Below are positions 4,313 to 28,741 of a DNA stretch of 64,000 nt, in pieces. The position numbers were made by a program, and so were the translations under genes. Every line of letters begins with the position of its first letter. Position 1 is the stretch's first letter. The stretch comes from Candidatus Kapaibacterium sp. (lineage in GTDB: Bacteria; Bacteroidota; Ignavibacteria; Kapaibacteriales; UBA4661): NCBI GenBank assembly GCA_025455065.1, contig JALONG010000014.1:1-64000 (forward strand), written 5' to 3'. Under the pieces are notes generated by a model. It saw only the letters and a program-made list of their open reading frames with translations, was not told the origin of the DNA and made no database searches.

Positions 4313-5950
4313 ATGACGGGGGATATTTTTGAGGAAGTTGTTTCAAAACCTTCAGTATTAAACGACGTGCAGGAAGAAGCGCATAAAGCGATTGACTTGT
4401 CAATACCCTCAAATTATGGTCGTGATATTCCTGCGGGGCTGGTCGTTTTTTTGGTTGCTCTGCCGTTGTGTCTTGGTATCGCCCTTGCGTCCGGTGCGCC
4501 GTTGTTAGGGGGAATTATCTCTGGTATAGTGGGCGGAATAATAGTCTCTTTTTTTTCCGGCTCAGAATTGAGCGTAAGCGGTCCGGCAGCAGGTTTAACG
4601 GTAATTGTTGCGGCTGCTATTCAGTCTCTTGGTTCGTATGAAAATTTTCTTGTGGCTGTTATTTTGTCAGGTGTTCTGCAAATTGGTTTGAGTTACCTTC
4701 GTGCCGGCGTGCTTGGTGATTTCGTGCCTTCCAGTGTCATTCGTGGTATGTTGGCAGCGATTGGTATTGTGATTATCTTGAAACAGATTCCTCACGCTTT
4801 CGGTAGAGATACTGATTTTGAAGGTGATTTCAGTTTTTTGGAGCCATCGGGTCATTCCAACACATTCAGCGAAATTGCACGGTCTATCGTGAGCGCAAAT
4901 CCTGAAGCAGTTATCATAACGATTGTTTCTTTTGCTATCTTGCTGCTCTGGGAACATCCACGACTAAAGAATATTCGATTGTTCAAAACCCTTCCGGCTG
5001 CTTTACTTGTGGTCTTTCTCGGTATTGGGCTGAATGAAATATTCCATGCACTCTTCAATGATTTTTACCTTCGCGCAGAAGACGGGCATTTAGTACAATT
5101 ACCCGTTACAAGCAACATTCCAGCTTTTATACAGAATCTACAATTTCCAACGTTTGCAATTTTGACAGAAACATCGGTTTATTCTGTTGCTGTAACCCTA
5201 GCAATAGTGGGTAGTTTAGAGACGCTACTGTCGTTGGAAGCTGTTGATAAATTAGACCCTTTCCGTCGCATTTCTGATGCAAATAAAGAACTTCGTGCGC
5301 AGGGAATTGGCAATATTATCTCTGGCGTTTTGGGTGGTTTGCCTATGACATCCGTAATCGTGCGGAGTTCCGCGAACGTGTATGCAGGAGCGCGAACAAG
5401 AATGTCTGCAATTGTGCATGGTATTTTATTGCTAGTTTCCGTGATTTTTTTAGCACCGCTTTTGAACCGTATTCCACTTGCTGCCTTAGCGGCTATTCTC
5501 ATTCTTGTTGGCTATAAACTTGCACGTATTAGTCTGTTTAAGCAGATGTTTCAAGCCGGCAAAGAGCAGTTTTTACCGTTTATTGTCACCGTTATTGCAA
5601 TAGTTTTTACCGACCTTCTGACGGGTATTGCTATTGGAATGTGCGTGGGAATGTTTTTTGTTATGCGCTCCAATCACCAATTTGCCGTGACACTTGTCAG
5701 CATGGATCACTACTATTTATTGCGATTTACCAAAGACATGACTTTTATCAACAAGGCTGAAATAAAAAGTAAACTTCGTCAAGTTCCTAATGATGCTGTA
5801 TTACTCATTGATGGCACAAAGGCGCGTTTTATTGATGCTGATATTTACGATACTGTTGCAGAGTTTGCTCAGGCGGCAACGTACCGAAATATTGAAATTG
5901 AATACAAAAATTTCTCCGCGAAAGAATTTAACCCTAATTCCTCACACTAA
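4313..5950 (+). CDS. SulP-family anion permease, likely bicarbonate transporter
   Basis: This 545-residue inner-membrane SulP transporter begins with a short cytoplasmic segment (residues 1-40). About a dozen hydrophobic helices follow, with the family signature near residues 80-95 ([16 protein letters not shown]), and a compact STAS-like tail from about residue 460. SulP proteins carry sulfate, bicarbonate or other anions. The carbonic anhydrase starting 17 bases downstream makes bicarbonate the likely substrate, as in the BicA-like branch, although substrate cannot be read from the sequence. The start is supported by the ribosome-binding sequence GCGAGGA at 4302-4308, just before the ATG at 4313. 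Confidence 0.9.
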
Positions 5951-5967
5951 AACCCGCTTACAATCTC

Positions 5968-6618
5968 ATGGAAACCTACAAAAAACTCCTTTTAGCAAAC
6001 AGGGCTTGGGTAGAGGAAAAACTTACTATTAAAAAAGATTTTTTTGAGCATCAGTACCCTTCGCAACATCCTGAATTTCTTTGGATTGGCTGCGCTGACA
6101 GCCGCGTTGCGCCAAATGAAATTACGGGGACGGAACTAGGCGAAATGTTTGTGCATCGAAACATTGCCAATTTGGTAATCCACACCGATTTTAACTTACT
6201 CAGTGTTTTGCAATATGCTGTTGAGGCGCTTCACATCAAGCATATCATCGTCTGTGGGCATTACGGGTGCGGAGGAGTACACAACGCAATGACGCATAAA
6301 AACTTGGGTTTGCTCAATAAGTGGCTTCGCTACATAAAAGATGTGTATCGGTATCACGCTGCGGAATTAGATGCAATCGGAGATGAAAACGCACGTTTTG
6401 ACCGTCTTGTCGAGTTAAATGTTATTGAACAGTGCCGCAATGTCGCGGAAACATCCATTGTGCAAAAAGCCTGGAAGAGGGAGCATTTTCCCTATATTCA
6501 TGGTTGGGTGTACGACTTACACACCGGTCTGCTCAAAGAAATAGCAATGATGCGCCCCGACGAAGACATTAACGACATTTACCGATTCGATTTTGATAAT
6601 AGCGAAGAAGAGCATTGA
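5968..6618 (+). CDS. can: beta-class carbonic anhydrase
   Basis: It interconverts CO2 and bicarbonate in the cytoplasm. At 216 aa it has the usual length for the Can-like branch. The zinc ligands are visible: Cys42 in GCADSR (with Asp44 and Arg46), His98 and Cys101 in CGHYGCGG. The helix RNIANLV follows the first motif, as is normal. It is almost certainly co-transcribed with the SulP gene, whose stop is 17 bases upstream. The pair would import bicarbonate and equilibrate it with CO2 for carboxylation or pH balance. Confidence 0.95.
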
Positions 6619-8038: not shown

Positions 8039-9100
8039 ATGAAAACAGCACGAACACTAGCTTTAGCAGTCGTCGTTATCGGCGGTATTGCTTTTTTACT
8101 CATGCGCAATAAAGCCACAATGGAGGCAAAAGCGGAACAGCCTATTGTACTTATTCCGACGGTCTCCACTGAACTTGTTGAAGAGCAGGCACTTAGCGAA
8201 AACCTTGAAGTGCAAGGCAGCATACAAGCACAAAATGAAGTTGTCGTTATTGCAGAAACACAAGGACGTATTACCAATATATTTACAAAACTTGGCGACC
8301 GCGTAGGGCAGGGAAGCCCCTTAGTGAAAGTAGATAGCGTTTTGAAATACTCCGGCTACATCGTTGCAAAAGCCAATTACGACAAAGCAAAGCGAGATGT
8401 AGAGCGGCTCCGCGAACTTCGCAAGGAAAACAATGCCTCCGAAAGCGAATTGGAAAGCGCAGAACTTGGGCTGCAAAATGCAAAAGCACAATTTATCGCG
8501 GCGGAGCGGCAACTTCGAGATGCCGTCATTACTTCGCCCATTGGCGGAACAGTCGTAGAGCGCCCTGTGAGCCTTGGAACGATGATCGCCCCTGGAACGC
8601 CCGTAGCGACTATCGTTGATGTTAGTACCGTAAAATTAAAAGCGAATGTACCGGAGCAAGAAGTTCTCAAACTCCGTGTTGGTGACAAAGTGCGTGTTCG
8701 CGCCGATGTGTACCCCGACGCTGAATTTACAGGAACAGTTTCATTTATCAGCATTAAAGGCGATGCCGCACATAATTATCCGATTGAAGTGGTCTTGCAA
8801 AATAGCGGCAAATATCCTCTCAAAGCCGGAATGAGCGCAAAAATGAGCCGTCAAACCCGTGAATCCCGTCAAGCATTGATGATTCCCCGTTTGGCAGTTG
8901 TGGGAAGTGTGAAATCTCCCAGCGTTTTTGTCGTTGAAACTGAACAAGGGAAAATGGTGGCAAAGCTCAAAAACATCGTCGTCGGCGTTGAAAACGGCAC
9001 AAAGGTTGAAGTTGTAAGCGGCTTGCAGCGCGGTGAACGGTTGGTGGTGAATGGTCAAAATAACGCACGGGCAGGGGCTGAGGTGATTGTCCAGCAGTAA
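8039..9100 (+). CDS. RND efflux periplasmic adaptor (HlyD/MFP family)
   Basis: This 353-residue membrane fusion protein has one N-terminal membrane anchor (residues 5-21). A biotinyl-lipoyl half-motif (VVVIAETQGRITNIFTKLGD) leads into a helical hairpin (about residues 105-165). The second lipoyl half (ITSPIGGTVVERPVSLG), a beta-barrel domain and a membrane-proximal domain ending in VNGQNNARAGAEV follow. It should bridge the inner-membrane pump and the outer-membrane channel. Both are encoded in the next gene, 109 bases downstream, as one fused chain. Confidence 0.93.
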   Translation: MKTARTLALAVVVIGGIAFLLMRNKATMEAKAEQPIVLIPTVSTELVEEQALSENLEVQGSIQAQNEVVVIAETQGRITNIFTKLGDRVGQGSPLVKVDSVLKYSGYIVAKANYDKAKRDVERLRELRKENNASESELESAELGLQNAKAQFIAAERQLRDAVITSPIGGTVVERPVSLGTMIAPGTPVATIVDVSTVKLKANVPEQEVLKLRVGDKVRVRADVYPDAEFTGTVSFISIKGDAAHNYPIEVVLQNSGKYPLKAGMSAKMSRQTRESRQALMIPRLAVVGSVKSPSVFVVETEQGKMVAKLKNIVVGVENGTKVEVVSGLQRGERLVVNGQNNARAGAEVIVQQ

Positions 9101-9209: not shown

Positions 9210-12200
9210 ATGAGTATTACAGAATTATCTATCAAGCGCCCCATTTTAATCGTTGTGATTTTTCTCGTCTTGGGAGTGCTTGGAATTGTCAGTTACGGTA
9301 AACTTTCTTACGAATTGCTGCCAAAAATGTCCTCGCCGTTTGTTACGGTGATTACGGTCTATCCCGGTGCAAATCCTAGTGAAGTAGAAAATGCCGTAAC
9401 GAAAAAAATTGAAGAAGCAGTCGCCGGCGCAGAAAAACTTAAACGTGTTTTTTCCACAAGCAGTGAGAATGTTTCTACGGTGTTTGTGGAGTTCAAGCAG
9501 GACGCTGATGCGAATCTTGCTACGCAGGACGTTCAGCGAAAAATCAACGAAATTACCGACTTGCCAACAGGCACAAAGCGCCCTGCGGTACTGAAGTTTC
9601 AACTTGATGCGATTCCCGTCATTCGTCTGGCGATTACCAGCACAATTCCTCCGAGAGATTTTTCTCAAACCCTTAAAGATCAGATAAAACCTCGCTTGGC
9701 ACAGATTAAAGGTGTTTCGCAGGTATCGTTAATTGGCATGGAAGAGCGTGAAATAAACGTGAATGTCAATGCCGACAAACTTCGTGCTTACAATTTGTCT
9801 ATTGCACAAGTTTCAGAGGCTATACGCCGCGCCAATCTTGACGTTCCGGCTGGTCGTGTGAACGATGTTGATGCCCAATTTGGTGTTCGTGTGCAAGGTA
9901 AATTTGAAAATGTTGTTGATTTGCAAAATCTTGTCGTTTTCTCCGTGCCCGCTCAAAATGGCTCTCCGGCAAGTGTTGTCAAACTTGGCGATGTAGCGGA
10001 AGTCTATGATGGAGCAAAGGACATTGAGTCTCTAAGCCGCTTGAACGGTGTTTCCGCAGTCGGTTTGCTCATTCAAAAACAAAGCGACGCAAACACTGTT
10101 GAGGTGAGCGAACTTGTCCGTGCGGAAATTGAAAAACTTCGCGCCGACCAGCCTACAATCTCCTTTTCGATTGCACAGGACGCTTCCGAATTTACGTTGG
10201 AAGCAGCAAACGCCGTTGTGCATGATTTACAAATCGCGGTGTTACTTGTTGCGGCTGTGATGTTGCTGTTTTTACATTCATGGAGAAACTCGCTTATTGT
10301 GATGCTTTCGATTCCTGCATCGCTTGTCAGCACGTTTATTGCAATGTATCTTCTCAATTTTTCACTCAACTTGATGACACTGCTTGCAATGTCGCTGGTG
10401 GTGGGGATATTGGTGGATGATTCGATTGTGGTTTTGGAAAGCATCTACCAACAGCTTGAACACGGCATGGAATCACGTGCGGCGGCACTCAAAGGGCGAA
10501 TGGAGATTGGTTTTTCCGCCTTGGCGATTACGCTCGTGGATGTGGTCGTCTTTCTCCCGTTATCACTCGTTTCTGGGCTTATTGGCGACATCATGCGGCA
10601 ATTCGCAATGGTTGTTGTCGTTTCAACATTGCTGAGTTTGTTTGTGTCTTTCACACTAACGCCAATGCTGGCTTCACGGTTTTCCCGTTTGGAACATCTC
10701 ACCCGCGATACGCTTATGGGGCGCTTTGGGTTGTGGTTTGAGCGCGGCTTTGATGCTGTTACGGCGTGGTATGGTCGTGTATTGGTCTGGGCTTTGGGGC
10801 ATCGTTTGGTGATTGCTGTGGGAGCATTTATGCTGCTTATCGGCTCATTTATGCTTCCGGCACTTGGTTTTATCGGTTCTGAGTTTATTTCGTCCTCCGA
10901 CAAAGGCGAACTTTCGGTTTCCATAACGCTTCCACCCGGAACGCCCTTTCAAGAAACAAATCGCATTGTGCGCGAGATTGAAAAAGAGTATGCTGCTTTG
11001 CCGGAAATTAAAAAATTGTTCACCAGCGTTGGTACATCATCAAGCGGTTTTGATGCACAAAACACCTCAAATAGCGCATACATAGACGTTTCGCTTATAC
11101 CCAAAGAAAAGCGAACCGCACCCGGACAAGATGCGCAGCAAATGTCCCTCAAAATGAAAAAAATTGCTCAACAATACCCGGGCGTGAAGGCACGTGTAGC
11201 ACCAATCGGGCTTTTCGGTCAGGCTGACGATGCGCCGATTCAAGTGCTGGTGTTTGGCGACAACCGCGATTCGGTAACACTTGCCGCAAAGCAGGTTGCA
11301 GACTTGCTTCAGTCGGTGAAAGGAAGTGCCGATGTGCGGTTGTCTGTGGAAGATGGAAAGCCTGAAACCCGCATCAGTATTGACCGCGAGAAGTTGGCAT
11401 CGTATAATTTGTCCTTGGATGAAGTCGGCTTCACCGTTCGCACGGCGCTTGCGGGCAATGACGACAGCAAAATTCGCCTTGCCGGAGTGGAATATCCCGT
11501 GAGAATCCGCTTGGATGCTGAAGACCGCTCAAAAACTGAGCGTCTCAAAAATTTGACCTTTACCAATATGGCGGGTCAGCGCGTGGAATTGCAACAGTTC
11601 GCCAGCGTCGAACAGTCCTTGGCTCCGTCGCAGTTAGACCGCAGAAACCGCAGTGCATCGGTGATTGTCTATTCCAAAGCAATCGGCAGAGCAAGCGGTA
11701 CAATGGGCGAAGAACTGAAAGAAAAAATCGCTGCTGCGAAACTTCCTCTCGGTGTTCGGATTGATTATTTAGGTGATTTGGAAAATCAAGGTGATGCCTT
11801 CGGAAGCCTAGGTTTGGCGCTCTTGGCAGCGATTTTATTTGTGTATCTCCTCATGGTGGCACTGTATAATTCATGGGTTTATCCGTTTATCGTTCTTTTT
11901 TCTATTCCCGTGGCTATGGTTGGAGCGCTCTTAGCGCTTGCATTGGCGATGAAATCGCTCAATATTTTTTCGATTTTGGGAATAATTATGATGATTGGTC
12001 TTGTGGCGAAAAACGCAATTTTGCTCGTGGATAGAGCAAATGCCGCACGGGAAGAGGGCTTGGACGTTCACGAAGCATTGCTGGATGCCGGAAGAACGCG
12101 CCTTCGTCCGATTGTGATGACAACGATTGCCATGATTATCGGAATGCTCCCGATTGCACTTGCTGGCGGGGCGGGAGGCGAGTTTAAGTCGGGGTTAGCG

Positions 12201-14072
12201 GTGGCGCTTATTGGCGGATTGACAAGTTCGATGTTTATGACGTTATTGCTCGTTCCAACGGTCTATATGGACATTGACCGACTAAGAGTTTTCACACTCC
12301 GAATGACGCAAAAAATTGCGAATAAATCCCGATTAAGCGATTTAGAGCGTGAAGAGCGCTCAAAGCAAGAGACAATGGGGCTTGCCGACATTGATGCACC
12401 GGAAGAATCACTGGACAATTATACTTCGCGCCAAAACGCAAACCATACTAACACATTGGCTGAAAACAGCAAAGAACCTCACGGAGAATCGAACACCGTT
12501 CATCAGCATTTCCATGGAAACGCCGTTGAAAATGACATGGAAAAGAATAATGGAAATTCCAATGAAAACACCAACGGTGATTCCAAGGCAAAAAGCAGTG
12601 TTCCTCAAGGCTCAAAAGCCTTACTTACGCTTCTTGGGGCGATGCTTGGTTTGACGGTGCTTTGGAATGGAGTTTCGGGAGTAGGAACTTCGGCACAGGC
12701 ACAAACACTAAAGCCGGAAGCAGCCCCTGTGCAAGTGTCCTTGCAAGAAGCGGTGAAAATTGCTCTTTCACAAAACCCGGAACTACTTATCGCAAAACTC
12801 GAAGAAGAGCGGGCGGAACAGCGTTTGCGGGAGATGCGTGGAGCATTTTTGCCGCAGGTTAATGCTTCCTTGCAATACGTCCGCAATATCCAAGCGCCCG
12901 TGTTCTTTTTTCCGGGTTCATTTTTGCAGATTGGCGATGCCTTGCAAGGTTTGGGTCGGTTTATCGTTTCACAAAATCCTTCCGATTTAAGCGCTTTGCA
13001 AAATTTGAATAACGATGCAGGATTAGTGCCGCTTCGTGCTGGGTTGGCAAATTCCTACACCATTACCGGAAACGTGAATATGCCGCTTGTGCAAGAGGAT
13101 TTGCGCCATGCGGTGCGGATGAGCGAAATTGCACAAACACTAAGCGCAGAAAGCACTGCTGGCGCTCGCGTTCAAAAATCGCGTGATGTGAAAAAAGCGT
13201 ATTACGATGTTCTCATGGTGGAAGAGCAGGAGCGGCTTTTGAGGCAATCTATCGCAAGAGCTGAAGAAACCTTGGCGCAAGTACGTTCCTTGCAGGCAAA
13301 AGGGCTTGCCACCGAGACCGACACGCTGCGTGCATTTGTCGGTGTGGAAAATCAGCGCCCTTTGCTGACAAAACTTGCAAACGGCATCAAATCTGCTCGT
13401 GCAGCCTTGGCGGTCGTTTTGGGGTTGGAACACACTACCACTTTTCGTTTGACCGACTCACTTACCTTAAAACAAGAATCTGTGCGGCTTCTGGGGCTTG
13501 AGGATGCAAAAAAAACAGCTCTTTCATCGCGCTCTGATATTCGCCAATTAGCACTCCGCAAAGACTTGGCAGATGCAGAAATTGCCTCCGGTTTTGCCGG
13601 ACACCTCCCGTCGGTAGCGGCGTTTGGGCAATATCAAATCATTTCGCAATCGGATAATTTTGATTTTTCCAAACAGCAATTTCCGCAAAGTTCGTTTGTG
13701 GGTTTTCAAGTAAGTATCCCGATTTTTTCTGGTTTTCGTACTGATGCAAAAGTTCAGCAGGCAACCGTAGGAAAATTGCAGGCAGAAAAACAATTACGCT
13801 ACGTTGAAAACCTTGTTTCGACGGAAGTGAGTGTCGTGCTGGCTAGTATTGAAGAGGCAAAAGAGCGCATCAAAGCACAAGAGCGAACCATTCAAGCCGC
13901 AGAACGTAGTTACAAAGCCGTTCGCAGTCGGTATGTACAAGGTTTGGTGCGGCAATTAGAAGTTTCCGATGCAGATTTGGCGCTCACGCAAGCAAAATCG
14001 AATTATGTGCAATCGGTGTATGAGTATTTAGTTGCTTCGGCAGAATTACAAAAATCGCTGGGACGCGAGTAA
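9210..14072 (+). CDS. RND efflux permease fused to TolC-like outer-membrane channel
   Basis: This 1620-residue chain combines two normally separate efflux parts. Residues 1 to ~1027 are a complete HAE1-type RND permease: first helix after SIKRPI, proton-relay Asp403-Asp404 in ILVDDSIVVLE, Lys934 in GLVAKNAILLVD, and two periplasmic porter domains. A hydrophilic linker rich in Asn, Glu and His follows (about 1028-1132). Next comes a hydrophobic segment with Ala-Gln-Ala-Gln at its end (about 1134-1163) that looks exactly like a signal peptide. Residues ~1170-1620 are a TolC-family outer-membrane factor (VSLQEAVKIALSQNPEL, then a duplicated helical repeat). The frame is continuous, with no stop between the halves. 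Fused RND-TolC chains are known for Bacteroidota CusA-like pumps. The processing here is inference. Confidence 0.92.
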   Translation: MSITELSIKRPILIVVIFLVLGVLGIVSYGKLSYELLPKMSSPFVTVITVYPGANPSEVENAVTKKIEEAVAGAEKLKRVFSTSSENVSTVFVEFKQDADANLATQDVQRKINEITDLPTGTKRPAVLKFQLDAIPVIRLAITSTIPPRDFSQTLKDQIKPRLAQIKGVSQVSLIGMEEREINVNVNADKLRAYNLSIAQVSEAIRRANLDVPAGRVNDVDAQFGVRVQGKFENVVDLQNLVVFSVPAQNGSPASVVKLGDVAEVYDGAKDIESLSRLNGVSAVGLLIQKQSDANTVEVSELVRAEIEKLRADQPTISFSIAQDASEFTLEAANAVVHDLQIAVLLVAAVMLLFLHSWRNSLIVMLSIPASLVSTFIAMYLLNFSLNLMTLLAMSLVVGILVDDSIVVLESIYQQLEHGMESRAAALKGRMEIGFSALAITLVDVVVFLPLSLVSGLIGDIMRQFAMVVVVSTLLSLFVSFTLTPMLASRFSRLEHLTRDTLMGRFGLWFERGFDAVTAWYGRVLVWALGHRLVIAVGAFMLLIGSFMLPALGFIGSEFISSSDKGELSVSITLPPGTPFQETNRIVREIEKEYAALPEIKKLFTSVGTSSSGFDAQNTSNSAYIDVSLIPKEKRTAPGQDAQQMSLKMKKIAQQYPGVKARVAPIGLFGQADDAPIQVLVFGDNRDSVTLAAKQVADLLQSVKGSADVRLSVEDGKPETRISIDREKLASYNLSLDEVGFTVRTALAGNDDSKIRLAGVEYPVRIRLDAEDRSKTERLKNLTFTNMAGQRVELQQFASVEQSLAPSQLDRRNRSASVIVYSKAIGRASGTMGEELKEKIAAAKLPLGVRIDYLGDLENQGDAFGSLGLALLAAILFVYLLMVALYNSWVYPFIVLFSIPVAMVGALLALALAMKSLNIFSILGIIMMIGLVAKNAILLVDRANAAREEGLDVHEALLDAGRTRLRPIVMTTIAMIIGMLPIALAGGAGGEFKSGLAVALIGGLTSSMFMTLLLVPTVYMDIDRLRVFTLRMTQKIANKSRLSDLEREERSKQETMGLADIDAPEESLDNYTSRQNANHTNTLAENSKEPHGESNTVHQHFHGNAVENDMEKNNGNSNENTNGDSKAKSSVPQGSKALLTLLGAMLGLTVLWNGVSGVGTSAQAQTLKPEAAPVQVSLQEAVKIALSQNPELLIAKLEEERAEQRLREMRGAFLPQVNASLQYVRNIQAPVFFFPGSFLQIGDALQGLGRFIVSQNPSDLSALQNLNNDAGLVPLRAGLANSYTITGNVNMPLVQEDLRHAVRMSEIAQTLSAESTAGARVQKSRDVKKAYYDVLMVEEQERLLRQSIARAEETLAQVRSLQAKGLATETDTLRAFVGVENQRPLLTKLANGIKSARAALAVVLGLEHTTTFRLTDSLTLKQESVRLLGLEDAKKTALSSRSDIRQLALRKDLADAEIASGFAGHLPSVAAFGQYQIISQSDNFDFSKQQFPQSSFVGFQVSIPIFSGFRTDAKVQQATVGKLQAEKQLRYVENLVSTEVSVVLASIEEAKERIKAQERTIQAAERSYKAVRSRYVQGLVRQLEVSDADLALTQAKSNYVQSVYEYLVASAELQKSLGRE

Positions 14073-14089: not shown

Positions 14090-15193
14090 ATGAACACCAT
14101 TTATTTCCCTTGGCTGCGCTTTTTTTGGGTTCCGCTTGTTGCATTTGTCTTTAATACGATAAATTGGGCAATCGCGGTAACGGATGATTTTGCGCAACAG
14201 TTCGTTTCGCAACTTGGCATAAAAATACCGTTAGACATTGTACTTTCAACGGCTTACACGGTGATTTGTTTTGAGGCAAGTTTGTGGATTTTTATTCGTT
14301 TGGAGCGTGGTTTTCCGCTTGAAAAAAGGCTCAAAACCTTGATGGTACTGCATATTCTCTTCAGTTCGCTACTGTGGATTTCGCTGTTTGCTATTTCTCA
14401 AGCGCTTTTGCACGGGTTTGATACACCGATGAAACGGTTTGTTTTTAAGCAAAATCTCGTGTTGGCGCTGGTCATTGCTATTTGCATGAACGTTGTGCTT
14501 ATCGGCATGATGTTATTTCATCGCTGGAAAAAAATTCATTCGGAAGCGGAAGATTTGAAGCGAGCGCACGTGGAAGCGCAGAATATCGCGCTTCGCCAGC
14601 AAATTGACCCACATTTTTTGTTTAACAGCCTGAACACGCTGACGGCAATGATTGAGGGTGAACCGCAAGGAGCAGTGCGGTTTGTACAGCAATTATCGAA
14701 TGTCTATCGGTATGTTCTCCAAAGCAAAGACCACATCACGGTTTCGTTGCATGAAGAACTTGCCTTTGTGCGAGCATACAGCGAACTTTTGGAACTTCGC
14801 TTTGGTGCGAATATTCGTATTGAGTTGAATATACCTGAAGAAGCTGAAACATACGTGTTACCGCCACTTTCGTTGCAGTTGTGCCTCGAAAATGCGGTAA
14901 AACACAATATCATTTCGCGTCAGAAGCCGCTTAGAATAAGGGTTTGGGTTGAAAGAAACACTGTTGTTGTGGAAAACACCCTGCAACTGCGCACGAATGC
15001 TCATTCTTCAACGAAAATCGGTTTAGCAACGTTGCAACATCGCTACGCACAGCTGACCGCAGAACCTGTTTTGATTACAAGCAATTCCTCGACATTTATG
15101 GTAAGTTTGCCGCTTCTACGTTCTACACAAACCAAGGAATTATCGGCATTTGAGGCAGTTTCACCGAACGAGAATTTTGCAGAAGCGTTATGA
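14090..15193 (+). CDS. LytS/YehU-type sensor histidine kinase
   Basis: This 367-residue membrane kinase has four predicted helices in residues 5-150, a short coiled coil, and the His_kinase motif LRQQIDPHFLFNSLNTL with phospho-acceptor His175. An atypical ATPase domain follows, with LCLENAVKHN as its N-box. Such kinases phosphorylate LytTR-type regulators. It starts 17 bases after the pump gene, and its stop overlaps the next start by four bases (ATGA at 15190), so it is translationally coupled to the regulator. The likely role is to sense the pump substrate or envelope stress and control this operon. Confidence 0.93.
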   Translation: MNTIYFPWLRFFWVPLVAFVFNTINWAIAVTDDFAQQFVSQLGIKIPLDIVLSTAYTVICFEASLWIFIRLERGFPLEKRLKTLMVLHILFSSLLWISLFAISQALLHGFDTPMKRFVFKQNLVLALVIAICMNVVLIGMMLFHRWKKIHSEAEDLKRAHVEAQNIALRQQIDPHFLFNSLNTLTAMIEGEPQGAVRFVQQLSNVYRYVLQSKDHITVSLHEELAFVRAYSELLELRFGANIRIELNIPEEAETYVLPPLSLQLCLENAVKHNIISRQKPLRIRVWVERNTVVVENTLQLRTNAHSSTKIGLATLQHRYAQLTAEPVLITSNSSTFMVSLPLLRSTQTKELSAFEAVSPNENFAEAL

Positions 15194-16014
15194 AGATTCT
15201 CATCATTGAAGACGAAACACGTGCTGCGAAGCGCTTAGAACAGCTTGTTCGGAGAGTGCTGGATGCAAAAGGCATGGTGCATCATTTTTACGAAACTCTG
15301 GACTCTGTTTCGTCGAGTGTGGAATTTCTTGCAACGAAGCCGCATTTAGACCTTGTGTTTATGGATATTCATTTGGCGGACGGTTTAAGTTTTGAAATCT
15401 TGGAACACGTGCCAATACTAGCTCCAGTGATATTTACCACTGCATTTGATGAATATGCAATCAAGGCGTTCCAAGTTCACAGTATTGATTATTTGCTCAA
15501 GCCGATTGATGAACAGCACTTGGAAAAAGCCGTTGAAAAACTGTTTTCCTTGAAAACGTATTTTTCAAACGATAGGGGAAATAGCACCGAAAGCGCATTA
15601 GAACAAGGCGCTCGGCATTTTTCCACTGAAAAAATTGCAGCAATCTTTGACCAACTTCAGCAACAGCAAAACCGCTTCAAATCTCGCTTTTTGGTGCAAA
15701 ACGGCAATTCGATGATAAGCATTGAAACGGCAGATATTGCGTACTTTTCCAGCGAATACAAGGTTTCATGGCTTGTTTGCAACGACGGCAAAAAATATTC
15801 TTTGGATTACACGCTGGAGCAAATACAAGCACTGCTAAATCCCCAATATTTTTTTCGCTTGAACAGACAATACATCGCTCACATCCAAGCAGTCAAGCGC
15901 TTTTCCGCAAGTTTCAACGGGAAATTATCGGTTACTCTCCAACCTTCTGCGCCGGAAGAAGTTATCGTAGGGCGCGAAAAAGCGGCTTCATTTAAGGAAT
16001 GGTTGGATTCATGA
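15190..16014 (+). CDS. LytTR-family response regulator
   Basis: This 274-residue regulator has an N-terminal receiver domain with acidic Glu7-Asp8, phospho-acceptor Asp59 in LVFMDIHLADG and Lys in YLLKPID. A C-terminal LytTR DNA-binding domain (about residues 170-270, containing YFFRLNRQYIAHIQAV) follows. It is coupled to the kinase by a four-base overlap and closes the efflux operon. Its targets are probably promoters such as the region before 8039. I could not identify a LytTR direct repeat with confidence. Confidence 0.94.
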   Translation: MKILIIEDETRAAKRLEQLVRRVLDAKGMVHHFYETLDSVSSSVEFLATKPHLDLVFMDIHLADGLSFEILEHVPILAPVIFTTAFDEYAIKAFQVHSIDYLLKPIDEQHLEKAVEKLFSLKTYFSNDRGNSTESALEQGARHFSTEKIAAIFDQLQQQQNRFKSRFLVQNGNSMISIETADIAYFSSEYKVSWLVCNDGKKYSLDYTLEQIQALLNPQYFFRLNRQYIAHIQAVKRFSASFNGKLSVTLQPSAPEEVIVGREKAASFKEWLDS

Positions 16015-16963: not shown

Positions 16964-17242
16964 TGTGTTGGGAAAAATACGTGAAAATGCGGATTGAGCG
17001 ATATCGCAATGAAGGCTTTGACGAAGTATTGCTGAAAAAAGATGACAAAAATGTTCCTTGCCAAGAAAACAGTAGAAAACACCTCATGTTTCCAGAAAGA
17101 AAACTTCCAAAAAAGTTGTTTATCAAAGGAATAATCACTAATATCGCTGAGAATCCTACCCCAAAAAGTTTGATGTTTTTTTGTGGGAAAATATGCTTCT
17201 TTTCACTATTGCTTGGCATTCATACTAGGGAATCAAGCAACG

Positions 17243-20200
17243 ATGCGTACTTTACTTTTGGCGACAATTATGAATACTTGGCATTTATTTCGGGAATCTT
17301 TCATTTCTCTTTGGCAACAGCAAAGCCTTCAAAGCGGTTGTATTTTGTTTCGTCTGCTCTGGAAACCAAGTGTTTATGCTCTTTTGATGACGTTTACCTT
17401 TCACAGTTCTTCGCTTTCACAACCAACAATTTCTACCCAACGTGCCAACGGTCCATTTGTCGGAAAAGTACGCTCCTTAGTTTCCCTGAACAATAGTGTT
17501 TATGCGCTTGTTACCGATGCTCCTGCAAATATTGTCGGCACAATCTCCACGTCGCAAAATGGTGTGTATCGCAGCACAAATAATGGTACTTCGTGGACGC
17601 ATTTGCCGTCGTTTCCCATTCCCGAATCTGCCCTCACGTTACAAGTGCATCTGAATTCCCTTTTTGTTACAACCTCAAACGCGGGAGGGGTGCTGTATCG
17701 TAGCACTGACGAGGGGCGCTCATGGCAAGCCGTTGCACAAAATATGCTTGGAAATGTCACTCATTTGGTAACGATGGGTGATACGCTTTTTGCCAGAACA
17801 GGAACTACCCGATTAAGTTCGATGTACAGAAGCACCGACACCGGTAGAACGTGGAGTTTGATAAGTGCGCCGGGTGCGATTTTGTCTGTCGTGGGTGTTC
17901 GGGGCAGACAAAATACCACGCAAACCAGAACATTACTTTTTGGTGGTTTTTTTCCAAGCATGAATAGCCTTCTACGCAGTATTGACGGTGGTTTGAGGTG
18001 GGATGATAATCTTTCGGTGAGTCCGAATTTGAGTGATTTGATGTTGTTTGATATTGTAGCAAAATTTAATGACGAATTATTTTTAGCGACTAACAAAGGA
18101 GTTCTAGTAAGTACGAATAACGGGCTTGACTGGAGAGCGCTGAATAATGGCATTGAAGGGCGCATCATTACTGATATTGGCATCAACGGTTCAATTCTGT
18201 ACGCTGCGTCTAACGATGGGTTGTTTATCAATACGGGAATAGCTTGGGAGACAGTTCCGGTGACGTTTTCAGGGCTTTCTCTCAGAAATCTTGCCATTGA
18301 TGCAATGCTGTATGAAGAAGGGCGTAGCACGATGCTGATTGGTACAACAAAAGGAATTTATCGGGCTGCCGTCAGCCCAAGCGGGTTACTCGAACGGTGG
18401 GAGCAGTGTAATCGTGGGCTGCCGGGTGTACGAATTGAGCCTATTTCCCTTGCATTTGCAGGAACTGTTCCTCTGGCTGCTACGCAGAATTATGGGGTTT
18501 TTCGTGCCTCTGACGGCTCTTCGTGGTTTGAAGCTAATAACGGTTTAGGACAAATTCCGTTTGCTACAAGATTGATTTCCGTCGGACAGCCTCCTTTGAC
18601 GGTTATTTCTTCCAGAACAAATGCTTTCACAAGCACCGATGCGGGTTTGACATGGCGCTCGGTCAGTTCGGGGCTGACGAATGAACTCATTACAGCCTTC
18701 GGCACGGCAAACAACTCGCTTATTTTTGCCGGCACGCAAACAGGTAGCATCTTTCGCACAAGTACCGCAAATCCTCAAGTTTGGACAAAGATTATTTTTA
18801 ACCCGCTTGAAAGCAGCAATACTCAGATAACAGGCTTTGCACAAAGCGGTAACACGATTTTCGCCTCGACGATAGACGGGCTTCTATCCAGTATTGATGC
18901 AGGTTCGACATGGGTACGTGTCAGTGAAAATATCCTTCCGAGAATACCGCTTTTTTCGATTGTTGCTTCGGGTTCGACGCTTTTAGCCGGGTCGAATAAT
19001 GGTGTGTATTATTCCCATAATGGTGGAAATACCTGGGTTGCTCCGGGTCAGAATGGTCGAATAGGCACGGTGCAGTCGGTCTTTATACGAGATGGGCTGC
19101 TCTACGCCGGAACGCCAAATTTAGGGCTTCACCGTTCCAGCGACAACGGTAGTACGTGGACACGCTTGGCGATTGATGGGCTTTCGGCGGCGACCTCTCT
19201 CGCGGCAGATTCTACGCGCCTTCTCATTGGTTCCAGTAACGGGATTGTCGAAATGCAACTCCCCAGCCCAACGGAATTTCCCATAATTACGAGGCTTCAG
19301 CCCGCCGATTCCGTGTTTATAGGCATTGGCGATGCCAATCTGATTATTGAAGGCAGAAATTTTACCCAAGCAACGCAAGTTCAATGCGAAGGGCGCATGA
19401 TTACAGTTCGATCGGCGAGAGTAACGGAAATATCAGTAACAATTCCTGCCGATATTCTGCTTCAAGAAGGAACAAAGCGTTTGGAAGTCATAAACCCTTC
19501 AGGCGCTCGTGCTTCGACGACATTTCGGGCAGTTCCGCTTCCACCGGATTTCCCTCAACTTCTCATCAATACTAGCTTAGAGCCGTTTGTTGCATTTATT
19601 TCTCAAACCTCTGCTCCACAGACGTATTTTCTGCAAGGGAGCAATGTTCGGGACAGTATTGTTTTGCAAGTGCCGGAATCCTTTGAAATTTCCACCGACG
19701 GCGGAAATACGTGGTTTTCGGGCAGAATTGCTTTTCGTTCAAGTTCCACAACAGTTAATCAATCCGTTTCGGTGCGCTTTCGCCCAACAAATTTACGTGT
19801 TGCAACCGGAGAAATCACGCATAGCGTTGGGGGGATTGTGCTGCAAAGGCTTTCACTCACAGGTTCACCGCGTTCCCTCCAAATCGTTGCTGAACCAAGT
19901 CAGTCACTTGATTTCGGGGCAACGAAACTGGGGCAGACGCTGCGCAGAACGGTAACAATTTCTAATCCGAATAGCGTCTCAATAACCCTTGCCACGGTTA
20001 TTTCCGGCGTAGCTGCGAGGGATTATAGTTTGTCGCAGCGACAAATCATTATTCCGCCCTCCGGAAGAGCGACTGTCGAAGTAAGTTATTCTCCCACAGA
20101 ACGCGGAGAAAGGGAAGCGCTGTTGGAAATTCTTGGTGTTGCTTCCACGGAGATTTCCTTGCGGGGAAGAGGCACGCAGGCTGTCTTTACGCTGAGTCCT

Positions 20201-22072
20201 GCGTCAATAACATTTTCAACTATCGCATTTGTCGGTCAAACATTGCGTTTGCCGCGAGAAACGGTGCGTATTGTGAACACAGGCGATGTTGCTGACGAGA
20301 TTCAAAACGTGCATGTTCTTGGCTCTGCCACTGAATTTCGGGTGATTGGTTTTGACAGGCGAGAACTTGCTCCCAATGAACACATAACCGTAACGATTGA
20401 AGCAAAGCCTGATTCTGTGGGGCTTCGCAGGGCTTCGATTACGCTTGTTACAGGTGACCGATTTTCTACATTTAACACCGTACAAGTTTCCGCACAAGGT
20501 GAGATATTACGCCCACCGCAGCTCGTTTTTCCCAATGTTGGAGTTTTCATTACGCCCGGTACAACGCAGCTTCGTTGGCTACCATCGCCGTTGGCGACCC
20601 ATTACGAAGTCGCTTTTGATAATGTGTTTAATGCTTCGCGGCTTATCAGCAGAAATACGCAAATCGTTCGCGGAACGGGAGCAAATGTGAATGTAGCGCT
20701 GAATAATTCGTATTATTGGACAGTACGCTCGCTGGTGATTCAGGGGCAGGACACGCTGACGAAAAGCGTTTGGCAAAATTGGCTTTTTTTTACGGCTGCT
20801 TCCGAACCGCGTATTTTCGTGCCACCCGTGTTGGATTTTGGTACGGTGACAATGCAGCAAGGCGAAACGCCGCCTCGTAGCCATCCTGTGTATGTAACAT
20901 CAGGTACGTGGCGGGTGTTGGATGTGAATATTGTTCAAGAGCCGGAAAATCCGAATGGGGATTATACGGCGTTTAGAATTGTAAACCGTGATGCCCTCAC
21001 GCTTTCAGGAGCATTATTGAAGCCACTTCCCGAAACCTATCCGATAGCAGTTGCGTTTCGACCGCCTCGCCCAAGAACTACGCCATATACCGCTATTGCG
21101 GAGTTGAGAGTGCAAAACACAACGACGAATGAAATACTCGCAATGCCATTTCAGGTTATCGCTTTGGCGACAATCTGCCCCACGCAGCAAACAGGCGCAG
21201 TGCAAGGAAATGTGGGCTGCCCCGAGACGCTGTTGGCATTGCAACTTGCCCCGCAAAAAGCAGTGTATTCGCCGGGTGATGATGTTCGCTTGCAAGTACA
21301 ACTCCTCAACACGCTCAATGTTTCACCGCCGATTGACCGATTTTTTCGGCGTTTGCGTTTAACGATTGATGTGCAGAATATTTCGCTCTTGTACTTCACC
21401 GAGCGCCTTACGCTTGGTCTTGGCGGTGATGCTGAAAACAGTGTTCGCGTGATTCCGTTCACTTCGTTGGAAACATTGCAGGCAAACACGGCTGTTAACC
21501 CCAACGGCAAAATCCGGCTTGTATTGGAGCGCCCTTCGGGGTTAAGGAATGGTGTTTTGGGGGAAATTCGTGGGAAAGCCGTCATAGGAATTTCGGGTTT
21601 GGGTACAAGGGCGGAGCAGTCTGCCGAATCAGTGATTATGCGTGTTTCCGATGTGCAGTGGATTAGTGACAGGGGGGATGTGTTGGATTCAGGGCAGGTG
21701 ATTGTGTGGGGCAATACGCAAGGTGTTTCTTTAACTTCGCAAGCGCTCACGGCAACCGTAAATACGTGTATTGTGGCGACAAATGGTTCTTTGTTCGTTG
21801 CAAAAACTCTTCCTTTCACTCTTTCAAAAACCAGCCCCAATCCCGCTTCAGAACAAACGTTGGTAAACTTTTCTCTTCAAGAACATTCCCAAACAGAAAT
21901 GGTGCTGGTGAACGTTTTTGGTCAGACAATAAAAACGATTTTCCGAGAAAAAATGTCGCCCGGGGCATATTCCATGCCTGTTCCGTTGCATGATGTTCCC
22001 ACAGGAACGTATTTTCTTATGGTAAAAACGCCTTCAGAAATAGCACAAATTAAAATGGAGGTTGTTCGATGA
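17243..22072 (+). CDS. giant T9SS-sorted surface protein with BNR/Asp-box propellers
   Basis: The protein is about 1609 residues with a hydrophobic signal sequence (roughly residues 40-60). About eleven Asp-box/BNR-like motifs of the form S-x-D-x-G-x-x-W (for example YRSTNNGTSW, RSTDEGRSW, STDAGLTW, RSSDNGSTW) fill the first ~670 residues and predict one or two beta-propellers. An IPT/TIG-like domain, two ASPM-SPD-2-Hydin-like domains, an Fn3-like domain and a second beta-rich region follow. The final ~75 residues are a type A sorting domain (KTSPNPASEQTLVNF ... GTYFLMVKTP). It is therefore exported through T9SS and attached to the surface or released. I prefer the ATG at 17243, preceded by AGGGAA. 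GTG at 17183 and ATG at 17270 are alternatives. It overlaps the next gene by four bases. Confidence 0.85.
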   Translation: MRTLLLATIMNTWHLFRESFISLWQQQSLQSGCILFRLLWKPSVYALLMTFTFHSSSLSQPTISTQRANGPFVGKVRSLVSLNNSVYALVTDAPANIVGTISTSQNGVYRSTNNGTSWTHLPSFPIPESALTLQVHLNSLFVTTSNAGGVLYRSTDEGRSWQAVAQNMLGNVTHLVTMGDTLFARTGTTRLSSMYRSTDTGRTWSLISAPGAILSVVGVRGRQNTTQTRTLLFGGFFPSMNSLLRSIDGGLRWDDNLSVSPNLSDLMLFDIVAKFNDELFLATNKGVLVSTNNGLDWRALNNGIEGRIITDIGINGSILYAASNDGLFINTGIAWETVPVTFSGLSLRNLAIDAMLYEEGRSTMLIGTTKGIYRAAVSPSGLLERWEQCNRGLPGVRIEPISLAFAGTVPLAATQNYGVFRASDGSSWFEANNGLGQIPFATRLISVGQPPLTVISSRTNAFTSTDAGLTWRSVSSGLTNELITAFGTANNSLIFAGTQTGSIFRTSTANPQVWTKIIFNPLESSNTQITGFAQSGNTIFASTIDGLLSSIDAGSTWVRVSENILPRIPLFSIVASGSTLLAGSNNGVYYSHNGGNTWVAPGQNGRIGTVQSVFIRDGLLYAGTPNLGLHRSSDNGSTWTRLAIDGLSAATSLAADSTRLLIGSSNGIVEMQLPSPTEFPIITRLQPADSVFIGIGDANLIIEGRNFTQATQVQCEGRMITVRSARVTEISVTIPADILLQEGTKRLEVINPSGARASTTFRAVPLPPDFPQLLINTSLEPFVAFISQTSAPQTYFLQGSNVRDSIVLQVPESFEISTDGGNTWFSGRIAFRSSSTTVNQSVSVRFRPTNLRVATGEITHSVGGIVLQRLSLTGSPRSLQIVAEPSQSLDFGATKLGQTLRRTVTISNPNSVSITLATVISGVAARDYSLSQRQIIIPPSGRATVEVSYSPTERGEREALLEILGVASTEISLRGRGTQAVFTLSPASITFSTIAFVGQTLRLPRETVRIVNTGDVADEIQNVHVLGSATEFRVIGFDRRELAPNEHITVTIEAKPDSVGLRRASITLVTGDRFSTFNTVQVSAQGEILRPPQLVFPNVGVFITPGTTQLRWLPSPLATHYEVAFDNVFNASRLISRNTQIVRGTGANVNVALNNSYYWTVRSLVIQGQDTLTKSVWQNWLFFTAASEPRIFVPPVLDFGTVTMQQGETPPRSHPVYVTSGTWRVLDVNIVQEPENPNGDYTAFRIVNRDALTLSGALLKPLPETYPIAVAFRPPRPRTTPYTAIAELRVQNTTTNEILAMPFQVIALATICPTQQTGAVQGNVGCPETLLALQLAPQKAVYSPGDDVRLQVQLLNTLNVSPPIDRFFRRLRLTIDVQNISLLYFTERLTLGLGGDAENSVRVIPFTSLETLQANTAVNPNGKIRLVLERPSGLRNGVLGEIRGKAVIGISGLGTRAEQSAESVIMRVSDVQWISDRGDVLDSGQVIVWGNTQGVSLTSQALTATVNTCIVATNGSLFVAKTLPFTLSKTSPNPASEQTLVNFSLQEHSQTEMVLVNVFGQTIKTIFREKMSPGAYSMPVPLHDVPTGTYFLMVKTPSEIAQIKMEVVR

Positions 22073-24252
22073 GTAGCACAAACCGTATCATCCCTCAATG
22101 TTTGCCGTTTTTGGGAAATTTTCTCATGGGTTGTGTATTCATGGTGTTGATTGCATCTTCTACATTTTCACAAACCTCGAAACCTCGTTCCAATCAGCCT
22201 TGCGACACAATTCAACGTATGATAATCCGAGATAATATTCCCCTTTCGTTTACGCGGTTTGGTCTTGGCGGTGATTACGCTGTACCGCTTGTGAACGCCC
22301 AATTTACTGGGATTCCGGGTATTCCGTCCTGTTGTCCGGGATATGGGTTTTCGGGTGGTCTTGCCTTTGGATTCGGTGTGTTTGCTGAGTGGGCGCTTTT
22401 GCAAAGCATTGGTGTTGGCGCTCAGGTGCGCATGAACATTGCAAACCTTTCCTTCTCTCGCAGAGAATATCAACCGCTTTACGGTCTTATCAATATTCCG
22501 CTTTTGTATTCGCTGCAAACAAACACTGTGAGTATTGATATTTCGCCCTATATCTTTTGGAGACCGCTTGAATCCTTAACCTTGCAAGCAGGATTCTCCC
22601 TAAGTTCGTATTTACCAACTGCATTTACCACGAATGAAAAAATTGATACTGCGGGGTTGTCGTTTATTACCAATGGGCAGTTTTCACGGACAAGAAATGA
22701 TACAAGCGGCATTACATCTGCTTTTGGCGGGGCAGTACCTTCGATTCGTCTTGGTGTGAATTACGAACTTCCATTGTTGGCAAATAAGACGCTGTTTATT
22801 GCCCCCGAAGCCTCATTCTCGCTAGGTTTGGCAGATATTGTGCAGAATTTGCAAGGCTCAAATCCCCGCTTGACATTCAGTGCTGTTCGCTTTGGAGCAA
22901 CTCTCCGTTATTCCCCGCAAACACGATTGACCGAACAGCAAATTACACAAATGCAAGAACAGGCAGATGAAGAGTATCGCCGCCGCCTTGAAGAGTGTGC
23001 AAGGCTGACAAAACCTGTTGAAAAAGATGTCGTTATTGCAAAAATAACATCCATCCAAAGTATTCCCAAAGAAGGTAGCGCGGAGGAGAACCCTACCATC
23101 AACATTGAGGAGTTTTTAGCCTCACGGTCGCGTTACGTGCTAAACACGATATTTTTTGCTCAACAGTCAAGTGATATTTCTTTGAGATACCGTAAAATAC
23201 AACCCGAAGACAGAGGTGCTTTTCGTATTGAAAATTTCGCTGATGCCGGGGTGTTGCAACTTTACTATCAAGTATTGAACATCATCGGAAAGCGCCTAAC
23301 GACAAATCCGAAAGCAGAAATTACTCTTGTTGGTTACGCTGATGGTCTTTCAGAAAAAAATGACAAAAAACTTGCTTTGGAGCGCGCAGAAAAAGTGAAG
23401 TTTTATTTGGTGAATGTTTGGAACATTGATGAAAACCGAATTAAGGTACAAACGGCAATGTCTCGCGTCCCTGTTCCTAACGACGGCGATGAAATATTTG
23501 AAGCTGAAGAGCAGCGCAAAGTCGAGATTCAATCAAATAATAAAGCCATTTTGGAAGAGCTTCGTTTTGATTACACTTTGCGAATAATCAACCCAAAGCT
23601 CGTTCGTATCAATTTTGAACTAGCGTCCGGTTCGCCTCTCAAACAATGGTCTGTGGAAGGTTCTCAGGTAGTTCAAGGAAGCAAAAAATCGTTGGAAGAC
23701 CGAACACTCTTTGTTACAAAAGGAACGACGATTCCTCAAGCGAAATTTGTGGATTGGGATGTTGCCAATCCCAAACAGCAACCGCAATCCCGCGAGGCAA
23801 TATCGGTGCGTATCAGCGCGTCGGACGTGAACAATTATTCGCCCGATTCTCCAATTCGAGAAATTCCCGTTAAACTCATTTCTGTTGCTGATAAAGAACG
23901 CGAAGGCAAAGCAGATAAGCGCATTGACAGTTACACACTTTTTTCCTTTGCTTACGGAACAAATGCCCCAATAAGTGGCAATGCCGATGTGCAGCGTATT
24001 GTGGCTGCGATTAAACAAACACTCAAACCCGGGGCAAAAGTTATTGTTACCGGTTATACGGACACGCGCGGAAATGAAATTACCAATGGAATTTTAGCAC
24101 TGCAACGTGCGAATGCGGTTGCGGGGCTTATTGGTTATCCCAATATGACGGTGAATAGCGAAGGTGCAACAAAAATCAATGATAACGCGCTACCGGAAGG
24201 ACGATTTTACAACCGTTTTGTGCAAGTTGATATCGAAACACCTCTCCGGTAG
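22069..24252 (+). CDS. double OmpA-domain outer-membrane protein (paralog 1)
   Basis: This 727-residue protein has a signal peptide (about residues 15-35), an N-terminal beta-barrel-like region (about 60-285) and a short charged helix. A first OmpA-like domain (about 345-495) contains FFAQQSSDI, NPKAEITLVGYAD and LALERAEKVKFYLVNVW. A beta-rich insert precedes a second OmpA-like domain (about 620-727) with SFAYGTNAP, VIVTGYTDTRGNE and LQRANAVAGLI. OmpA domains usually bind peptidoglycan. It starts inside the stop of the giant T9SS protein (ATGA at 22069), so the two are translationally coupled. Close paralogs are at 26663 and 37963. Confidence 0.85.
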   Translation: MSSTNRIIPQCLPFLGNFLMGCVFMVLIASSTFSQTSKPRSNQPCDTIQRMIIRDNIPLSFTRFGLGGDYAVPLVNAQFTGIPGIPSCCPGYGFSGGLAFGFGVFAEWALLQSIGVGAQVRMNIANLSFSRREYQPLYGLINIPLLYSLQTNTVSIDISPYIFWRPLESLTLQAGFSLSSYLPTAFTTNEKIDTAGLSFITNGQFSRTRNDTSGITSAFGGAVPSIRLGVNYELPLLANKTLFIAPEASFSLGLADIVQNLQGSNPRLTFSAVRFGATLRYSPQTRLTEQQITQMQEQADEEYRRRLEECARLTKPVEKDVVIAKITSIQSIPKEGSAEENPTINIEEFLASRSRYVLNTIFFAQQSSDISLRYRKIQPEDRGAFRIENFADAGVLQLYYQVLNIIGKRLTTNPKAEITLVGYADGLSEKNDKKLALERAEKVKFYLVNVWNIDENRIKVQTAMSRVPVPNDGDEIFEAEEQRKVEIQSNNKAILEELRFDYTLRIINPKLVRINFELASGSPLKQWSVEGSQVVQGSKKSLEDRTLFVTKGTTIPQAKFVDWDVANPKQQPQSREAISVRISASDVNNYSPDSPIREIPVKLISVADKEREGKADKRIDSYTLFSFAYGTNAPISGNADVQRIVAAIKQTLKPGAKVIVTGYTDTRGNEITNGILALQRANAVAGLIGYPNMTVNSEGATKINDNALPEGRFYNRFVQVDIETPLR

Positions 24253-24305
24253 TATTGCGGTCAATATATGCTGCTGACCCCATCAAACCTCATTTTTATC
24301 ATGGT

Positions 24306-26666: not shown

Positions 26667-28741
26667 AAACAATTCTGTTCTTCTTGATGACGTTTGCTGT
26701 TGTTCAAAGCCCATTCACCAATGCACAATCCCCGCAAACCGCTCCACAGCCTATTCGCTGGGGCGTGCAGGGTATTTACGGATTACACCAACATAGTGCA
26801 AATTTTACGGCACTTCCGGGTGTTCCAAATTCTTCCCCCGGCTTTTCGGGCGATATTGGTACAGGCTTTGGGGGCGGAATACTTATGGAAATTCCGATAA
26901 TTTCCTCCGTTCCTGATTTGTTTCTTGGGTTACGAGCCTCTTACGCGCTTCACAATGCGCGATTTGTAACAAATGAGGAAGCCACAATTAGTGTAGATGG
27001 CTCGCCGATACCCGCGATTTTCCGGCATTCCTTAGCATTTGCGTTACCGCTTATTGCGGTGGATATGCTTCCTGCTTGGAGGTTTCCGGATGCGCTGAAT
27101 GGTTTGCACATTATGGCAGGTTTACGGGGAGGGTTCTGGGTTGCACCAAAATTTTCGCAAACAGAAGAATTGATTGAAGGCACAGGGAAGGCGCAGTTTA
27201 GCAGTGGTGGTACGCAGCGCAATGTGCGTACAAATGAGGATTTACCGTCTGCCGCCCCTGTTCAGTTAGCGGCGTTGTTGGGAATAGGGTATGATTTCGC
27301 ACTGACCGACACGAAAAATATTTTACTCACTCCCGAAGTTCAGTATGGATTACATTTAACGCAGTTTGTTTCCGGTCTTTCGTGGCAGGCAAATACGCTT
27401 AGGTTGAATCTGGCAATCAAATACAACCCTGCGGCAAAAGCGCCCGAAGCAGCACAAAAACTACAAGCACAGACAATAACCCAGACCCAAATCAACGCTG
27501 TCACCGCTCCCAACGAGTCGCTTAATGCAAAACCCAAAACGCTTACCGCCTCTGTGAAAGCCTACTCTGTAGATGCTGATGGAAACGAGCACGAACTTAT
27601 CATACTCAAAACGGAAGAATTTATTTCGCGCCAACTTTACCCGCTTCTTAATTACGTCTTTTTTGACCAAAATTCGGATGTAATTCCGGCACGGTATGAG
27701 CGCATAACCACCGCAAGAACGAGAACATATACGGAGAAGTCCTTAAGCGGTAGAACAACGCTTGATATTTATTATGATGTGCTGAATGTCATCGGAAAGC
27801 GTTTGGTGGATAATCCTACGGCAACGATTCGGCTTGTGGGGTGTTTGGGTGAAGTCGGCTTCGGACCTCAATCGGAAGAAAATGACCCGTATCTTGCGCT
27901 TCGCAGGGCAGAATCAGTAAAACAATACTTGACAGGAACATGGGGCATTGCTGGAAACCGCATCCGTACTGAAGGCAGGGCATTGCCGGAAAAACCGTCT
28001 AATTCTAAAAATGCGACAATCGGCGCGGAGGAAAATCGGAGAGTGGAGATATATTCAGACTCTTGGGCGATAGTGCAGCCTGTTGTCATTGCCGACACCT
28101 TGCGTGAGACGGATGCTCCGGTGGTGAAATTTCAAATGAGCGCAGAATCCGACGAAAGCCTCACGAAATGGACGCTTCGGGCATTGCAAGGGAATAAAAA
28201 ATTGAAGGAGTATTCGACACTCGGCGCACCAGACCCACAATACCAATGGCGACCAAGCCGTGAACGCAGCACCATTCCTACGACTGAAGAGCCTCTGCGA
28301 TACGAATTGGAAGTTGTCAATGCTGCCGATAAAGATTTTACGGCGCAAAACACTATTGCGGTTGAGCAAATTACTATTCAACGAAAGCGCCAAAATCGTA
28401 TTGCCGACAAAGAAGTGGATGTCTATCGTCTTATCGGTTTTCCCTTTGAACAAGCGGCTGTGGAGGGGGTAAATTTGCGAACTATCAATGAATTTGTGAA
28501 GCCGAATTTGAAGCCCGAATCTGTGGTAACAATTATCGGTTATACCGACGCAAGCGGTGATGCGGCTTCTAACCAGCGTCTCTCTGACTCTCGTGCGGCA
28601 GCAGTTGGCAAAGAATTAGCTATGGGATTCATAAAAACTCGCGGAGTGGGCAGTCGTACTGCACTTTATACAAACCTCGCCCCCGAAGGGCGCTTGTATT
28701 CACGTACGGTTGAAGTTCGTGTTGAAACTCCTGTACGCTAA
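26663..28741 (+). CDS. double OmpA-domain outer-membrane protein (paralog 2)
   Basis: This 692-residue paralog has the same layout as the protein at 22069. It has a signal peptide (residues 3-22), an N-terminal barrel-like region, and a first OmpA-like domain (YVFFDQNSDVIPARY, NPTATIRLVGCLGE, LALRRAESVKQYLTGTW). A beta-rich insert leads to a second OmpA-like domain (VVTIIGYTDASGD, LSDSRAAAVGKEL). Its ATG sits in the stop of the adhesin gene (ATGA at 26663). Membership of the same operon suggests that each secreted protein has its own outer-membrane/peptidoglycan partner, but no interaction can be shown from sequence. Confidence 0.85.
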   Translation: MKTILFFLMTFAVVQSPFTNAQSPQTAPQPIRWGVQGIYGLHQHSANFTALPGVPNSSPGFSGDIGTGFGGGILMEIPIISSVPDLFLGLRASYALHNARFVTNEEATISVDGSPIPAIFRHSLAFALPLIAVDMLPAWRFPDALNGLHIMAGLRGGFWVAPKFSQTEELIEGTGKAQFSSGGTQRNVRTNEDLPSAAPVQLAALLGIGYDFALTDTKNILLTPEVQYGLHLTQFVSGLSWQANTLRLNLAIKYNPAAKAPEAAQKLQAQTITQTQINAVTAPNESLNAKPKTLTASVKAYSVDADGNEHELIILKTEEFISRQLYPLLNYVFFDQNSDVIPARYERITTARTRTYTEKSLSGRTTLDIYYDVLNVIGKRLVDNPTATIRLVGCLGEVGFGPQSEENDPYLALRRAESVKQYLTGTWGIAGNRIRTEGRALPEKPSNSKNATIGAEENRRVEIYSDSWAIVQPVVIADTLRETDAPVVKFQMSAESDESLTKWTLRALQGNKKLKEYSTLGAPDPQYQWRPSRERSTIPTTEEPLRYELEVVNAADKDFTAQNTIAVEQITIQRKRQNRIADKEVDVYRLIGFPFEQAAVEGVNLRTINEFVKPNLKPESVVTIIGYTDASGDAASNQRLSDSRAAAVGKELAMGFIKTRGVGSRTALYTNLAPEGRLYSRTVEVRVETPVR

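Follow-up and report, generated by a model that had tools for sequence, protein, structure and literature searches.

Analysis of a 64,000-nucleotide stretch of DNA from Candidatus Kapaibacterium sp. (contig JALONG010000014.1, positions 1 to 64,000; hereafter the window) revealed a gene at 9210-14072 on the forward strand that joins a drug-efflux-type pump and an outer-membrane channel in one protein. The single chain begins with a full HAE1-type resistance-nodulation-division (RND) permease, continues through a linker that is disordered and hydrophilic and a segment resembling a signal peptide, and finishes with a complete channel of the TolC type. We consider it probable that this gene encodes a pump-channel polyprotein which, after export, is cleaved at its internal signal by signal peptidase I. 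The frame opens at ATG 9210, closes with the stop codon at 14070-14072 and comprises 1620 codons with no internal stop. A preliminary description, made from the letters alone, had placed a permease and a TolC-like channel in one polypeptide, and the 1620-amino-acid frame, with Pfam ACR_tran and two matches to Pfam OEP, confirmed this; a stop codon between the halves, which would have separated them, was looked for and is absent. By hydropathy, the protein has 12 hydrophobic segments across the permease half and a 13th at the junction. The parts of the gene, all on the + strand, are as follows.

9210..12272, +: HAE1-type RND permease half, residues 1-1021 (Pfam ACR_tran at residues 4-1021, 881 bits; 12 transmembrane helices, TM1 to TM12).
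12282..12611, +: linker, hydrophilic and rich in Asn, Glu and His (residues about 1025-1134), expected to lie in the cytoplasm (predicted local distance difference test score, pLDDT, mostly <50).
12603..12701, +: internal signal-peptide-like segment, residues about 1132-1164, with a helix at 1135-1150 and a c-region ending T-S-A-Q-A (hydropathy; AlphaFold2 helix).
12699..12704, +: proposed signal peptidase I cut between A1164 and Q1165 (alternative, between A1162 and Q1163), a Q-rule site.
12735..14069, +: channel half (residues 1176-1620), an outer-membrane channel of the TolC family with a duplicated OEP fold.

The permease half is classed as HAE1-type because the HAE models (RND_permease_2, 737 bits; TIGR00915, 573 bits) outscore the heavy-metal efflux model TIGR00914 for CusA/CzcA (425 bits), and because it carries the Asp-Asp pair of TM4 (VGILVDDS) and the Lys of TM10 (GLVAKN). 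Its closest solved chains include MdtB, CmeB, MexB and AcrB. It scored 573 bits against the TIGR00915 cut-off of 940 and 737 bits against the NF033617 cut-off of 1250, and judged by these scores the permease is HAE1-like and lies outside both of these named NCBIfam subfamilies. In the channel half, the last of the two OEP copies ends at residue 1618, and an AlphaFold2 model predicted a TolC domain that is complete and duplicated and has two helices of 67-68 residues (mean pLDDT 68.7, so that details are soft). Foldseek matched this model to TolC and OprM structures with E-values down to 7e-23. Together with the OEP repeats and the order of helices and strands, this model places the channel half in the TolC/outer membrane factor family.

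We then asked how far the fusion extends beyond this genome. A junction search found the same fusion in four further genomes of the genus (G098, G100, G097 and G095, in our numbering), each recorded under a metagenome assembly of its own with the name Candidatus Kapaibacterium or Ignavibacteria; in a fifth, G096, the permease runs up to the contig end. Searches with the channel half, covering the phylum (395 genomes) and the class (294 genomes), yielded complete fused frames beyond the genus in G463, G267, G249 and G621, and in G380 a permease, signal and partial channel in one frame, cut off by the contig end. This gives ten HAE1 fusions, including that of the window and the contig-cut G380, in six lineages. 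Among the about 155 close permease matches listed for the phylum, 6 were fused or fused into a contig end. The preliminary description had called an HAE1-type fusion with an internal signal less familiar; by these searches it is indeed rare, yet it is not unique to this genome: at least six lineages of the phylum have it, among them Kapaibacterium and five distant ones.

The linker is the least conserved part of the protein. Between the window and its congeners it is 19-36% identical and variable in length, compared with 76-86% for the permease halves and 62-76% for the channel halves, and across lineages it is barely alignable. Nevertheless, none of the fusions has a stop codon in the linker, whereas the two other frames of the window hold 7 and 10 across this region.

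By contrast with the linker, the junction segment carries a conserved feature. In 10 of 10 HAE1 fusions, an Ala-Gln pair (written A/Q, the slash marking the putative cut) lies 4-16 residues past a short hydrophobic core. In the window, the core at 1135-1150 is followed by S-A-Q-A/Q at 1161-1165 (codons 12690-12704), offering two candidate cuts, after A1162 and after A1164. The motif reads SAQA/Q here and SAVA/Q, NIFA/Q, TMFA/Q, TLWA/Q, NTLA/Q, KVYA/Q, ELQA/Q, PVRA/Q and SSYA/Q in the nine other fusions. As a control, of the 129 hydrophobic segments in the permease halves a single one had AQ within the next 20 residues, so that A/Q is enriched at the internal segments (Fisher p about 1e-9, with the six lineages counted once each). 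In hydrophobicity, the internal segments lie below the permease transmembrane helices (per lineage p 0.004) and could not be told apart from free-TolC signal peptides (p 0.20); AQ stands near the N-terminus in 24 of the 26 free TolCs compared. Such an A/Q site is the "Bacteroidetes Q-rule" of signal peptidase I substrates, for which the value in Ignavibacterium album is 77% (PMC5837995). Six other proteins of the window with N-terminal signals have signals ending in A/Q or S/Q, and the source organism appears to obey the rule. With its short core and following Ala-Gln, the junction segment has the sequence of a Q-rule signal peptidase I substrate, and the conservation of A/Q across six lineages supports the internal cleavable-type signal that had been proposed from the window alone.

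These observations suggest the following model. The RND permease would insert with its C-terminus in the cytoplasm, where the hydrophilic linker would remain, and the short hydrophobic segment would act as a second, internal signal peptide, taking the TolC half across by way of the Sec channel. Cleavage by signal peptidase I after the Ala of A/Q would free the channel to fold and trimerise in the outer membrane. Gln1 of the released channel would probably be cyclised to pyroglutamate, so that the mature N-terminus is predicted to be pyroGlu-TLKPEAAPVQVSLQEAVK, or QAQTLKPEA... from the alternative cut. As follows from the gene structure, pump and channel would be synthesised 1:1, fitting a trimer-to-trimer assembly, with the adaptor supplied by a separate gene. 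We infer that the channel is exported, cut and given a pyroglutamate end, that the products assemble with the adaptor encoded next to them, and that a LytTS/LytTR pair controls the system.

The preliminary description had left a choice between cleavage and a thirteenth helix, and the evidence favours cleavage. If the hydrophobic segment were simply a 13th transmembrane helix, the channel would stay tethered to the pump; the single frame, a 16-residue core able to span the membrane and a topology parity that fits all agree with this. However, in an uncut chain the tether from the core to the first channel helix would be 10-27 residues in all ten fusions, at most 35-94 angstroms and far short of the periplasm. 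In known channels the alpha-barrel reaches about 100 angstroms into the periplasm (PMC4790312), and the adaptor joins the channel tip to tip beneath it (PMC5404916). In the AlphaFold2 model of the channel half, short helices precede the first strand; taken with the succession of helices and strands, this puts the beginning of the chain at the barrel's equatorial level. Judged against these known dimensions, an uncut tether does not seem long enough for a TolC-like channel assembled canonically in the outer membrane. The segment also falls below the transmembrane helices in hydrophobicity, and A/Q is conserved although an anchor needs none. We therefore regard a 13th helix as quite unlikely. 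That the chain remains uncut at least in part, as a covalently tethered pump-channel extending from the inner towards the outer membrane in a non-canonical, much shorter architecture, appears very unlikely.

An internal ribosome start in the linker, which would yield a separate channel precursor and hence two products, is likewise unlikely. The linker of the window does offer start codons (ATG at residues 1056 and 1110, TTG at 1083), and in G249 and G621 an ATG coincides with the signal segment; however, start positions differ among the other fusions, and in G098 the linker ahead of the core contains no ATG, GTG or TTG at all. On this last ground a conserved internal start, sought because the preliminary description had raised it, was rejected. 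No Shine-Dalgarno match of >3 bases was found at the linker start codons scanned (a scan made without G621), an argument that is weak in this phylum. As for a functionless fusion arising from recent stop-codon loss or an assembly error, its rarity among close permeases would fit, but the same fusion stands in separately assembled congeners and in five further lineages, the linker and signal persist stop-free, and the permease tree clusters the fused proteins (3 state changes versus 8.6, see below). Assembly error was rejected because the congeners share the fusion, and we give the explanation as a whole almost no credence.

Several points weigh against cleavage of a polyprotein. The site in the window is the least typical of the set, with its core 14-16 residues from the A/Q sites, a long c-region. 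The evidence for the signal segment comes from hydropathy, the AlphaFold2 helix and A/Q conservation, and that for the putative cleavage from sequence conservation and predicted structure. The ATG in G249 and G621 stands at the start of the signal segment, where separate initiation could add a product. Finally, G102 and G197, which lie within the same permease group, are unfused, so the fusion is not essential to the system.

Apart from these arguments, the ATG at the internal signal segment of the G249 and G621 junctions (loci L066 and L112) is possibly a relic of a formerly separate channel gene.

The fused permeases are rare and stand apart as a group of their own. Their usual relatives reside in channel-adaptor-permease operons, the channels of which are only about 19-26% identical. 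The G621 channel, excluded from model building, scored 490 bits, compared with 365 for the best free channel. In permease trees, the fused rows cluster with the unfused G197 and G102, requiring 3 state changes against a shuffled mean of 8.6. A single clade of every fused permease without the two unfused ones was rejected (approximately unbiased test, p 0.0002), which leaves either one gain and two losses or several gains. On the permease tree, one gain followed by two losses would be the most economical history; several independent gains would be less economical and are also compatible with the analysis. The branch holding the whole permease group became weak after G621 was added (59/42), and the fused channels of Kapaibacterium have that of G102 as their sister (98/91). 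At the G102 locus (L045), adaptor and permease share a strand, and after a divergent channel gene comes a kinase of the type seen near the fusions. At the G197 locus (L079), adaptor, permease, kinase and regulator follow one another without an intervening channel gene, and the nearest channel is on another contig.

The fusion gene of the window is flanked by the following genes.

8039..9100, +: upstream gene, separate from the fusion, for an RND periplasmic adaptor (membrane fusion protein) of 353 amino acids (Pfam HlyD_D23; 207 bits with NCBIfam RND_mfp TIGR01730, whose cut-off is 94.9).
14090..15193, +: downstream gene for a LytTS-like sensor histidine kinase (Pfam His_kinase); the same neighbour occurs at other fusion loci.
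15190..16014, +: gene for a LytTR response regulator (Pfam Response_reg and LytTR), which overlaps that of the kinase; also a neighbour at other fusion loci.

An adaptor gene is thus linked to pump and channel, as in a tripartite pump. The order adaptor, fusion, kinase, regulator recurs in the Kapaibacterium group, G267, G249 and G621, with the exception of G098, where other genes lie between adaptor and fusion; in G463, kinase and regulator genes are nearby on the opposite strand. The operon of the fused permeases is therefore usually adaptor, pump::channel, LytTS and LytTR. Promoter and terminator scans performed no better than on shuffled sequence.

The system resembles the HAE1-type tripartite pumps AcrAB-TolC, MexAB-OprM and MdtABC in the families of its permease, adaptor and channel, in the TM4 Asp-Asp and TM10 Lys residues, and in having a separate adaptor gene; it differs in that permease and channel form one chain with an internal signal and in missing the NCBIfam subfamily cut-offs. 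CusA/CzcA-TolC fusions share the single-frame RND permease-TolC design, but have a permease of the heavy-metal type, a single Asp in TM4 and a very short linker. One of these is present in the same genome (G000:C63; TIGR00914, 1166 bits), and its junction has a hydrophobic core and an internal signal ending FAQ, indicating that internal signals occur in both kinds of RND-channel fusion and are not specific to HAE1. The very short linker of the C63 fusion (L039:3077-7594, - strand) reads SSPHPNPSPEGRG and resembles a translated repetitive extragenic palindromic (REP)-type repeat. The matching palindrome is found at two places in the genome, and a scan for the REP-like repeat gave these two copies only; such a repeat may have joined the C63 permease and channel genes.

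A similar layout is reportedly found in the Bradyrhizobium cytochrome b/c1 precursor FbcH, in which a polytopic inner-membrane protein is followed by an internal signal and an exported partner and is cut by signal peptidase. Both FbcH products are said to stay in the inner membrane, whereas here the second belongs in the outer membrane. Literature searches on fused RND pumps and channels and on FbcH as a precedent found nothing useful in a limited library, which is not evidence of absence. Compared with the Q-rule substrates of Bacteroidetes (PMC5837995), the fusion has the same A/Q at the signal peptidase I site, but its signal is internal and follows a 12-helix protein. Pyroglutamate was not tested for inner-membrane proteins in that study (PMC5837995).

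Elsewhere in the window, two very large proteins (17183-22072 and 32463-37688) carry C-terminal Por_Secre_tail sorting domains and are probable type IX secretion cargo; the former additionally has ASH/TMEM131-like domains. The region 22069-28741 contains an 803-amino-acid protein without a Pfam match, with a signal ending SAQ, between two OmpA-domain proteins. At 4313-6618, a Sulfate-permease-family transporter adjoins a carbonic anhydrase gene.

In summary, the fused genes mark a recognisable group of LytTS/LytTR-linked RND pumps without a free channel gene at the locus. If cleavage is true, they would encode a natural polyprotein whose products reside in two different membranes, in equal number and mutually dedicated, and signal peptidase I would act on an internal signal downstream of a 12-helix protein. 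The fusion would thereby test whether the reach of the Q-rule and of pyroglutamate formation extends to internal sites.
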